NCBI GenBank assembly: GCA_903893445.1
Contig: CAITMG010000092.1
Location: forward strand, 1-38,654
Source: Candidatus Uhrbacteria bacterium
Lineage (GTDB): Bacteria > Patescibacteriota > Patescibacteriia > 2-12-FULL-60-25
Length of the DNA stretch: 38,654 nucleotides
Direction of reading: 5' to 3'
The notes below the pieces were generated by a model. It searched no databases, was not told the origin of the DNA, and saw nothing but the letters and a program-made list of their open reading frames with translations. Position 1 is the first letter of the stretch, and every line of letters starts with the position of its first letter. This document shows positions 13,632 through 22,577 of this stretch, one piece after another. The position numbers and the translations under genes were made by a program.

Positions 13632-14369
13632 ATGACGCGGATTTTGATCACCGTTCCGACGTGGAATGAGGAGCTCATCATTGCGAACACGCTTCGTGAA
13701 CTTTGTGATTTTTCCGCAACAAAACTCGCGGATTTTGATGTACTCATCGATGTTGCGGATAATGGAAGCACGGATGAAACGGTACGTATTGTGACCACCC
13801 CCAGCCCCTCCGATGGCCATCGGAGGGGATCTGGTTTGCGTGTTTCGTTGACGCGTATTTCGGCAAAGGGGAAGGGGTTGGCGATTCGGCAATCTTGGGA
13901 AGCGCATGTTGCTGATTGTGATGTGTTGCTTTTTACGGATGCGGATTTGGCTGCGGACTTGAACGTCATTCCGCACATGGTGGAACGGATTTTGTCTGGA
14001 TCGGCGGATGTGGTTGTGGGTTCGCGGTTTGTTGGAGGTGCGGCGGTTGAACGACGTTGGCATCGGGAAATGGCGTCGCGATTGTTTCGATTGTTCCAGC
14101 ATGTGATTTTGGGATTGCCGGTGCAGGATGCGCAGTGCGGGTTAAAAGCGATTTCTGCAAACGCCGCGAAAGAGATTTTGCCGTTGTGTCGTGAGACGGG
14201 GTGGTTGTTTGATAGTGAGTTGTTGTATCGCGCAAAAAAACGGTTTCGGATTTTGGAAATTCCGGTGGCGTGGGTGGAACATCGAGATCCTTCGCGCCGG
14301 AGTGCGATTCGGTTGTTTCGCGATGGGTGGGGATTTGTGACCGGATTGTTGCGTATTCGGTTTTATTGA
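13632..14369 (+). CDS. GT2 family glycosyltransferase (dolichyl-phosphate sugar synthase-like)
   Basis: A 245-residue GT-A enzyme. Motifs in order: VPTWNEELIIANTL at the N-terminus, VADNGSTDET (nucleotide binding), AKGKGLAIRQ, and FTDADLAADL (DxD-like metal site). VVVGSRF, DAQCGLKAI and a GWLFDSELLYRAKK block follow. This order is that of polyprenyl-phosphate mannose/glucose synthases, which load a sugar onto a lipid carrier. The downstream enzyme would be the GT-C protein encoded one base upstream. Unusually, a palindromic repeat (13797-13828) is inserted in frame between DNGSTD and GKG, adding about a dozen residues (PSPSDGHRRGSG) in what is normally a variable loop. Confidence 0.85.
   Translation: MTRILITVPTWNEELIIANTLRELCDFSATKLADFDVLIDVADNGSTDETVRIVTTPSPSDGHRRGSGLRVSLTRISAKGKGLAIRQSWEAHVADCDVLLFTDADLAADLNVIPHMVERILSGSADVVVGSRFVGGAAVERRWHREMASRLFRLFQHVILGLPVQDAQCGLKAISANAAKEILPLCRETGWLFDSELLYRAKKRFRILEIPVAWVEHRDPSRRSAIRLFRDGWGFVTGLLRIRFY
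13797..13828. repeat. Palindromic repeat inserted in frame in the GT2 gene
   Basis: CCCCTCCGATGG (13805-13816) is followed at once by its perfect complement CCATCGGAGGGG (13817-13828), preceded by CCACCCCCAG. The arm and its C-rich flank resemble the complement of the repeat at 36458-36477 (GGAGGGGGTTGGGGGTGG). Confidence 0.75.
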
Positions 14370-14371
14370 AG

Positions 14372-14391
14372 CCCGCGTATTCGTATGCGGG
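14372..14391 (+). other. Hairpin overlapping the four-way-junction element
   Basis: CCCGCGTA, loop TTCG, TATGCGGG, directly after the GT2 stop. Its last three G are also the first three bases of helix P1, so the two structures exclude each other. No T-run follows. Confidence 0.6.
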
Positions 14392-14613
14392 TCCTGCCAG
14401 TCGAATTTCCCCCAGTCCATGCTCGGTTCGCATTGGTGCTCACCTGCGCGTGGACCGGGGGACCCCCATTCGACTGTCACCCGCACGATTTTAGTTAAAA
14501 ATGGCACCGCACGGGTGACTCCCGAGTGGGGCCCCCGACAGCGCACAGGACGACATGGCAGCAAGAAAAGCGTCGTCGCGAGCACTGGCGGGGTGACGAG
14601 GGAGGCAGGACCC
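14389..14613 (+). ncRNA. Structured element: perfect four-way junction (candidate ncRNA)
   Basis: 225 intergenic bases fold completely. P1 is 10 bp, GGGTCCTGCC (14389-14398) with GGCAGGACCC (14604-14613). P2 starts on the next base: AGTCGAAT (14399-14406) with ATTCGACT (14468-14475), continued by CCCCC/GGGGG (14409-14413/14457-14461) and GTCCA/TGGAC. P3 starts directly after: GTCACCCG (14476-14483) with CGGGTGAC (14512-14519), with an inner ATTTT/AAAAT hairpin. P4 follows without a gap: TCCC (14520-14523) with GGGA (14600-14603), then CCCCG/CGGGG, CAG/CTG and GACGAC/GTCGTC (14549-14554/14572-14577). No base at the junction is unpaired. A terminator follows 20 bases later on the plus strand. 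I do not recognise the SRP, RNase P, tmRNA or 6S core motifs. It could be an RNA or a folded mobile element. Confidence 0.7.
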
Positions 14614-14632
14614 GTGCAATTTTCTGTAAATT

Positions 14633-14655
14633 TGGCTTATTTAAGCCATTTTTTT
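14633..14655 (+). terminator. Terminator after the four-way-junction element
   Basis: TGGCTT (14633-14638), loop ATTT, AAGCCA (14643-14648), then seven T. It ends transcripts of the GT pair and of the structured element on the plus strand. Confidence 0.85.
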
Positions 14656-14680
14656 ATTTCACATTTTGTACGGCTGGGGG

Positions 14681-14709
14681 TTGACAAAAGGGCCTTTTTG
14701 TGATATCTT
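14681..14709 (+). promoter_or_regulatory. Module promoter P2 (TTGACA-17-TATCTT)
   Basis: TTGACA (14681-14686), spacer AAAGGGCCTTTTTGTGA, TATCTT (14704-14709). The spacer centre is nearly palindromic (AAAGG-GCCTTT). Confidence 0.85.
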
Positions 14710-14713
14710 ATTT

Positions 14714-14807
14714 CGTTCTCTAAGAGCCGTGTCCACGCTGGACATCCTTGGGGAGACACCTCGAAAACTGAGACAAATCACACCCCGCAAGGGGAGAAGA
14801 GAGAACG
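14714..14807 (+). promoter_or_regulatory. Folded leader that can hide the ribosome site
   Basis: CGTTCTCT (14714-14721) pairs with AGAGAACG (14800-14807), ending three bases before the ATG and covering the only nearby purine-rich ribosome site. Inside are TGTCCA-CGC-TGGACA (14730-14744) and the GNRA-type hairpin CCCC-GCAA-GGGG (14783-14794). A competing pairing exists: CCTTGGGG (14746-14753) with CCCC...AAGG (14783-14792), which would break the GCAA hairpin. Two exclusive states with the ribosome site in one helix are what a translational switch needs; no ligand is suggested. Confidence 0.5.
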
Positions 14808-14810
14808 ATC

Positions 14811-15671
14811 ATGGCTGACAAGACGACTGCTGACGATTCCTCGAGCGATTCCAAGCCGAAGGGCAAGGGGCCGGACAAGAGCCGAGAGGACATCTCGAAC
14901 GATGTTGCGTACGGGACGAAAGTCCTGACGGAGATCGGTGAAGATATCTTCAGCGATCTCGGCGAAGCGTTCGGCGATGTTCCGATGGTTCGCGGCCTCT
15001 TGGAGAAGTTGCGCGCGTCGGACCCTGGGAAGCTTCTCGGTTCGTTCGCCATTGCTCCCGCGCTCCAAGCGTGGGCGGAGAAGAAGGGTTTGGTTAGCGC
15101 AACGCTCAAGGCGCTCGGCGCGCCGGACTTTCTCGTCACCAATGCCAATGAGATGCTCGGTGGCTTCTTTGAAGGCCTGCGACGGAAGTATCGGGAAAAC
15201 GGTGGGAGTCTCACGCGAGGCGATGTCGCTCAGGTGCGGAAGCAGCTGCAGACGGACATCGCTGCTCGTCTCGCCGAACCGCTGACGTACGCGCAGGCGC
15301 TTCAGACCCTGAACACGGAGGAGCAGGTCAAGTTCCAAAACAAGGTCGATGATCTTGGTGAGGATCGCCTGCCGCTGTTCAACAAGATCAAGACCAAGAT
15401 CAGCAGTCCCAAGGACGTGCGCGTCTTGCTCAAGCTCCGTGCTGATCAGTGGATCCCGCATCTCGAGCAGAAGTACGGATCGCTCGCTTCACCGCCCAAG
15501 TCGGGCATGCTGCTCGCCATCGATAAGGTCTTTGGCGTGATCACCAGCGCGGTGAACAAGGCGGTCGAGCCGATGCCGGAAGCGGAAAAGAAGAAACATG
15601 AGGACGATCTCAAGGAACGGCGCGATCAGATCGCGCAGCGCCGAGCGAATCGCCTCAACAAGCCGTGGTAA
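14811..15671 (+). CDS. Soluble helical protein of unknown function
   Basis: A 286-residue cytosolic protein with no signal or membrane segment. Residues 1-28 are Asp/Ser/Lys-rich and probably disordered. The rest is predicted helical with charged heptad-like stretches (EDIFSDLGEAFG, EKLRASDPGKLLG, YRENGGSLTRGDVAQVRKQL). It ends in a long Lys/Glu/Arg helix (EAEKKKHEDDLKERRDQIAQ). No family is recognised. Driven by P2 through a folded leader and followed 26 bases later by a large membrane protein, so the two probably work together. Codons are strongly C/G-ending. Confidence 0.7.
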   Translation: MADKTTADDSSSDSKPKGKGPDKSREDISNDVAYGTKVLTEIGEDIFSDLGEAFGDVPMVRGLLEKLRASDPGKLLGSFAIAPALQAWAEKKGLVSATLKALGAPDFLVTNANEMLGGFFEGLRRKYRENGGSLTRGDVAQVRKQLQTDIAARLAEPLTYAQALQTLNTEEQVKFQNKVDDLGEDRLPLFNKIKTKISSPKDVRVLLKLRADQWIPHLEQKYGSLASPPKSGMLLAIDKVFGVITSAVNKAVEPMPEAEKKKHEDDLKERRDQIAQRRANRLNKPW

Positions 15672-22551: not shown

Positions 22552-22577
22552 AAAAACGACCCACGTGGGTCGTTTTT
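22552..22577. terminator. Bidirectional terminator between tRNA-Ser and the next gene
   Basis: AAAAACGACCCAC followed directly by GTGGGTCGTTTTT, a perfect dyad that ends the tRNA on plus and the gene at 22579 on minus. Confidence 0.85.

Follow-up and report, generated by a model that had tools for sequence, protein, structure and literature searches.

Among the systems closest to the repeats described here, a REP is a palindrome of 20-40 bp, one end of which bears an unpaired tag, GTAG or CGTC; the CGTC type has been reported without a dedicated transposase, REPs are distributed near the 3′ ends of genes, and some REP dimers have been reported to sit within longer palindromes that have no empty counterparts (PMC3733652). 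In the Patescibacteria, whose genomes are very small, intergenic repeats are little described. The window considered here is the whole stretch of DNA that was analysed, 38,654 nucleotides of a contig from Candidatus Uhrbacteria bacterium, and its feature at 14389-14613 is very probably an inverted dimer of an interspersed, hairpin-forming DNA repeat, of a kind resembling both REP/BIME repeats and MITEs.

A sequence-only reading had seen in these 225 bases one element folded into a four-way junction, and the four helices are borne out, since all are perfect and abut exactly: P1 joins 14389-14398 to 14604-14613 (10 bp, GGGTCCTGCC/GGCAGGACCC), P2 joins 14399-14406 to 14468-14475 (8 bp, AGTCGAAT/ATTCGACT), P3 joins 14476-14483 to 14512-14519 (8 bp, GTCACCCG/CGGGTGAC), and P4 joins 14520-14523 to 14600-14603 (4 bp, TCCC/GGGA). 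The pairing is also beyond chance, as had been claimed: the fold reaches -114.7 kcal/mol against -87.1 +/- 5 for 200 dinucleotide shuffles (z = -5.52), none of which was as good. At 14372-14391 the letters also show the competing hairpin, CCCGCGTATTCGTATGCGGG, and the plus-strand intrinsic terminator that follows the feature is present at 14633-14655, with its stem at 14633-14648 and a T tail, ahead of a promoter-like site of the next gene (TTGACA-17-TATCTT, 14681-14709, plus strand). A 40-base stretch at 14678-14717, at this promoter-like site before the gene at 14811, is 85% alike to positions 155-194, and this likeness perhaps reflects a shared promoter.

What did not hold is the singleness of the element. 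A search of its own genome returned matches to the left half or to the right half, never to both together, and each half recurs alone with 77-97% identity; the feature is made up of two related repeat units that run in opposite directions and lie tail to tail between the glycosyltransferase gene and the next gene. Each, in its own orientation, begins with GGGTCCTGCC and finishes with GTCACCC, and both have a common skeleton of stem, C-run, TGCTC, variable hairpin, TGCGC, G-run/C-run and stem. Unit A (14389-14482, plus strand) scores 61 bits and unit B (14513-14613, minus strand) 66.7 bits with the model R1 of the longer form, type I; the spacer between them is at 14489-14508. Copies of A in G000 are found at C44:34411-34516(-) with 94% identity and C18:8822-8927(+) with 90%, and those of B, each alone, at C37:25828-25948 (97%), C95:8220-8334 (96%) and C42:1496-1594 (77%). 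Because A is on the plus strand and B on the minus strand, P1 joins the two GGGTCCTGCC ends and P3 the two GTCACCC ends, P2 being a stem inside A and P4 a stem inside B. The 10-bp terminal inverted repeats seen in P1 are thus a single conserved end that occurs twice, once in each of the two opposed units, whose inversion allows the conserved ends to pair with each other and give the four-way junction, as in BIMEs. Of the options first put forward, a folded mobile element comes nearest, in that these are dispersed, multicopy, patchy hairpin repeats, but they are two units and not a single element. In the exact four-way form, P2 and P4 included, the energy is -112.5 kcal/mol, about 2 kcal/mol above the free minimum, which retains P1 and lengthens P3 in place of the four-way form; as A and B, each folded apart with its own arms, reach -55.7 and -54.4 kcal/mol, in total -110.1, the junction is about equal in energy to two hairpins, and is one among several near-equal forms.

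The unit is a hairpin of 70-120 bases, running from GGGTCCTGCC to GTCACCC with asymmetric loops, and it has two forms, type I, that of the window, and the shorter type II. Its outer stem, GGGT/ACCC, is continued outwards by copy-specific arms, and inwards the CCTGCC/GTC asymmetric internal loop leads to a second stem that varies, after which come a C-run/G-run stem, a TC/TNC loop and, at the tip, a hairpin that is again variable. In unit A, on the plus strand, the CCTGCC strand (14393-14398), invariant in type I and type II copies, faces the conserved GTC (14476-14478); the intra-unit stem P2 (5′ strand 14399-14406, 3′ strand 14468-14475) covaries in relatives as helix 2, and the conserved TGCTC element (14420-14424) precedes the variable apical hairpin. 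As read from the letters, the left arm of A, TGC (14386-14388), pairs with the right arm GCA (14483-14485), and the arm GCAC of B (14614-14617, minus strand) with GTGC (14509-14512, minus strand). Arms are complementary in most copies of the family and differ from copy to copy, 39 of 152 matching at no fewer than six of the positions from -5 to -14 where about 4.5 would be expected. A target duplication was considered for the CTCG present on both sides, but these letters make up the TC/TC internal loop that the unit shows elsewhere too, and the idea was dropped.

Of the copies that the covariance model detects in the window's genome, seven are strong and two weak. Among 144 relatives, 10 contain the exact-end pattern (14 copies in G001), the reversed control giving no matches. 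Type I copies recognised by R1 occur in 24 genomes out of 381 for the class and in 24 out of 380 for the phylum, the counts per genome being lower bounds. About 6% of the sampled Patescibacteria are carriers, in a patchy distribution with several copies per carrier, and near-identical copies within one genome record recent duplication. Among the matches listed in a scan of genome contigs, structured copies belong to Omnitrophota, to many Patescibacteria including Saccharibacteria, to Gammaproteobacteria (including Coxiella and Legionellaceae bins), to Deltaproteobacteria and to an Elusimicrobia bin; those in Knoellia, Modestobacter, Curtobacterium and a few others are unstructured and were set aside as chance. 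An identical copy is common to G028, from the window's family, and an Uhrbacteria bin (L022 = L189), a link that makes an Uhrbacteria-like origin of the window probable. In the omnitrophotan genome G386 the end motif stands at 75 places, about 59 of which are complete copies with both ends, and the copies number about 65 in all. Close inverted pairs recur, besides that of the window, in L301 and L124. The 45 pattern matches in viral contigs were treated as chance because none was seen to fold like the family, and plasmids and phages gave no match for it.

Other repeats were seen in passing. Inside the glycosyltransferase reading frame of the window, 13805-13828 is a perfect 24-base palindrome, CCCCTCCGATGGCCATCGGAGGGG, possibly a small repeat inserted in frame; the window also carries direct repeats at 512-616/1217-1320 (105 bases, 94%) and 8098-8267/9356-9525 (about 170 bases, 77%). 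In G230, several core copies (L284, L290, L293) have immediately to their left a REP-like palindrome, for example ATTCCCGCGAAAGCGGGAAT, an arrangement that is a composite of two repeat families.

The surroundings of the copies bear on what they could do for their hosts. For 95 intergenic copies, a simple codon-based gene finder placed the flanking genes as ++ in 39, -- in 32, +- in 15 and -+ in 9; there is no orientation preference and few spacers are divergent. As a rule only some tens of bases separate the copy from the 3′ end of a gene, and the position of the window's pair directly behind a stop codon is one that the family commonly takes. A further 39 copies overlap a predicted ORF, in most cases, we think, because of crude gene calls, and with the same crude ORF calling the only recurrent neighbours were housekeeping families. 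A regulatory 3′ UTR of the glycosyltransferase operon, as a specific function, is not supported, because the same units occur behind unrelated genes. A more general role, in which the units are bidirectional terminators or protectors of mRNA 3′ ends retained for the host, would fit their location near gene 3′ ends in either orientation, and some copies have terminator-like arms (L005, L025, L031), those of L005 being A-rich and T-rich (AAAAAACGAT..ATCGTTTTTTT), while the arms of other copies resemble other repeats. The type II copies of G001, with right arms that are often T-rich and directly behind stop codons, could act as terminators, and one of them replaces the ordinary terminator of rplL: G001 has two type II copies, in the rplJ-rplL spacer and behind rplL, and its congener G021 has neither, with an ordinary terminator behind rplL. 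However, most copies have no T-run, an ordinary terminator stands separately at the copies of the window, C37 and C42, the family is absent from 94% of the sampled genomes, and target duplications mark insertion, all of which makes retention for such a function unlikely as the explanation of the family; termination may be a side effect. Around rplJ-rplL, G021 itself has short intergenic repeats of the TATAACCT/ACCTATA type (L404, 943-995 and 1690-1712), which are another small family.

The target duplications come from Omnitrophota, where the core lies inside two scaffolds. Scaffold 1, in G386, has ends GGTGCTGTCTCAATTTGGC, and of its nine cases eight are bounded by exact 8-bp target duplications. 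For scaffold 2, with ends TGCTCTGTCGAA, the duplication is of 9 bp and is exact in three of the five cases, one being from G389, and in the other two cases 8 of 9 and 7 of 9 positions match. These are unrelated MITE-like elements that contain the same core. Among the Patescibacteria copies, those of the window included, the scan gave no target duplications. It could be proposed that the core itself is mobile and inserts into the tips of palindromes, whether terminators or MITE arms, and this would account for arms that differ yet remain complementary well above expectation, for the same core in at least two unrelated scaffolds and for its two orientations within scaffold 1. Against it, empty palindromes that could serve as insertion targets were looked for and only deletion derivatives were found: G386 yielded no core-less scaffold-1 palindrome, one deletion excepted; the core-less scaffold 2 of G389 (L405, 62 bases, with an exact 9-bp target duplication, GAACCATCC) resembles a deletion between CCACGGG and CCACGAG, and is probably such a derivative, possibly the ancestral form; and in the rplJ-rplL spacer of G021 no palindrome is found at the site occupied in G001. 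A core mobile by itself is for these reasons improbable. Six scaffold-1 copies of G386 (L258, L263, L270, L272, L273, L274) have lost the right side with the left arm intact, and these losses start within about 12 bases of the GTCACCC end, which is a breakpoint hot spot.

The search for a mobilising enzyme concerned firstly the Y1 (RAYT) transposases. That the family consists of REP elements moved by such an enzyme would be in keeping with hairpin repeats, inverted dimers and a REP-like position, and a PF01797 match occurs in 13 of the 24 R1 carriers; but it occurs also in 6 of 20 genomes without R1 matches, which is no clear association, it is absent from 11 carriers, among them the nearly complete G230, G067, G011, G083 and G054 and the copy-rich G001, none of the 20 Y1 loci examined has a copy beside it, and the GTAG tag is missing. 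Y1 was accordingly rejected as the mobiliser, and REPs of this sort are a very unlikely identity for the units. IS1595, which its ends and 8-bp duplication had suggested as the parent of scaffold 1, was also discarded, being absent from G386 and having other ends in the four genes found. In G386 there is no long element bounded by the paired ends of scaffold 1 or of scaffold 2, and no transposase bearing the family's ends was found.

The strong covariation of the units could be taken for a sign of RNA. The covariance-model search recovered copies in relatives with abundant compensatory change: in 93 aligned copies 84.3% of cells are paired, compared with 63.2% when shuffled and 38-51% when slid, and double changes occur in 26 of 30 pairs, with 627 double-changed cells where 197 are expected; fitting the alignment to the model tilts these figures in its favour, the margin nonetheless being large. 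An RNA helix tolerates G-U and not A-C. The helices of 80 representatives have 1840 Watson-Crick pairs, 68 G-T and 60 A-C, and a second, anchor-based count of 79 representatives gives 393, 7 and 9, whereas a small tRNA control gives 89, 6 and 1. The equal rarity of G-T and A-C points to pairing in DNA, or to the correction of one arm from the other, and, together with the absence of strand bias in the neighbouring genes, it indicates that the pairing is apparently conserved in DNA and not in one RNA strand. The exception is a T-G pair beside the TC/TNC loop, conserved in 61 of 80 and never A-C, from which it follows that one strand matters for that motif. Comparison with Rfam agrees with the earlier statement that no known RNA class is matched, its covariance models, at gathering and relaxed thresholds, having returned only tRNA-Ser and chance microRNA matches. 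(Directly behind tRNA-Ser, 22552-22577 in the window is a perfect 26-base palindrome, perhaps its terminator.) A new non-coding RNA at this locus is unlikely, as there is no G-U excess over A-C and no strand preference of neighbours, and copies vary between related genomes at the same operon; and a multicopy class of structured or cis-regulatory RNA, with the unit's plus strand as the transcribed one, for which the covariation, the conserved internal loops, the single plus-strand T-G pair and the frequent position after stop codons could be adduced, is highly improbable in view of helix mismatches balanced at 68 to 60 in some 1970 (6 to 1 in tRNA), the balanced orientation to neighbouring genes, the patchy distribution with near-identical copies in one genome and the lack of an Rfam match. 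Strong covariation in intergenic DNA thus does not prove RNA, and the balance of G-T and A-C is what distinguishes the two.

If we accept, then, an interspersed DNA repeat of which the window has an inverted dimer, the unit would spread as non-autonomous DNA, with transposases acting in trans on the inverted repeats that flank it, in Omnitrophota probably through cut and paste of the DDE type, and a protein would recognise the conserved loops once one strand has folded or a cruciform has been extruded. The reading preferred here is that several transposases, recognising the flanking arms, move the unit in trans. A bolder version, which we offer tentatively and regard as possible but rather doubtful, makes the core a module of folded DNA, a hairpin with invariant loops recognised by an enzyme as a single strand or cruciform, which moves or is exchanged among terminator hairpins and MITEs of unrelated kinds, and which Patescibacteria, Omnitrophota and Proteobacteria have in common because it has spread between them. 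The core found across phyla, its covariation at the DNA level and its unrelated MITE scaffolds make the spread of REP-like repeats without RAYT directly testable.

As regards known systems, the family resembles REPs and BIMEs in being intergenic, palindromic, present in many copies and near gene 3′ ends (PMC3733652; PMC2817692), with many dispersed copies mostly downstream of genes; like CGTC REPs it is without a known transposase, and the RAYT (Y1) transposase flanked by repeats, which goes with GTAG REPs, is not seen. BIMEs are likewise inverted dimers foldable as one larger structure (PMC2817692), as are the window pair, L301 and L124, but they are built of REP units, and the units of the family have neither REP tags nor REP size: they measure 67-120 bases or more, both ends (GGGTCCTGCC/GTCACCC) are paired, there is no GTAG tag and no CGTC-stem-CCA layout, and they have conserved asymmetric internal loops, freely varying arms and no RAYT association. 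The REP dimers that lie within longer palindromes are, by analogy, a close parallel to the nested core. REPINs are also miniature mobile DNA of about 100 bases, with one long hairpin and conserved ends (PMC3116915), but the family does not consist of two GTAG REPs, has no RAYT partner seen and is mostly of low copy number. With the MITEs of DDE transposons it has in common, in the two Omnitrophota scaffolds only, terminal inverted repeats around the core and target duplications of 8 or 9 bp; it differs in that one core is common to scaffolds with unrelated ends, and no parent transposon was found. Integron attC sites are single strands of DNA that fold, with a tip that varies and conserved bases left unpaired, and in this the family is alike; an attC identity was nevertheless rejected, as the RYYYAAC/GTTRRRY core boxes are absent, there are no cassette arrays and the copies are dispersed between ordinary genes. 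The literature search, many subscription papers lying outside its scope, gave no paper that brings REP or MITE repeats together with Patescibacteria or CPR, and nothing relevant for the family's 10-mer. Within the literature searched, a family with a large looped core in unrelated scaffolds across phyla is thus undescribed, and the kind of repeat to which it belongs is one already known.
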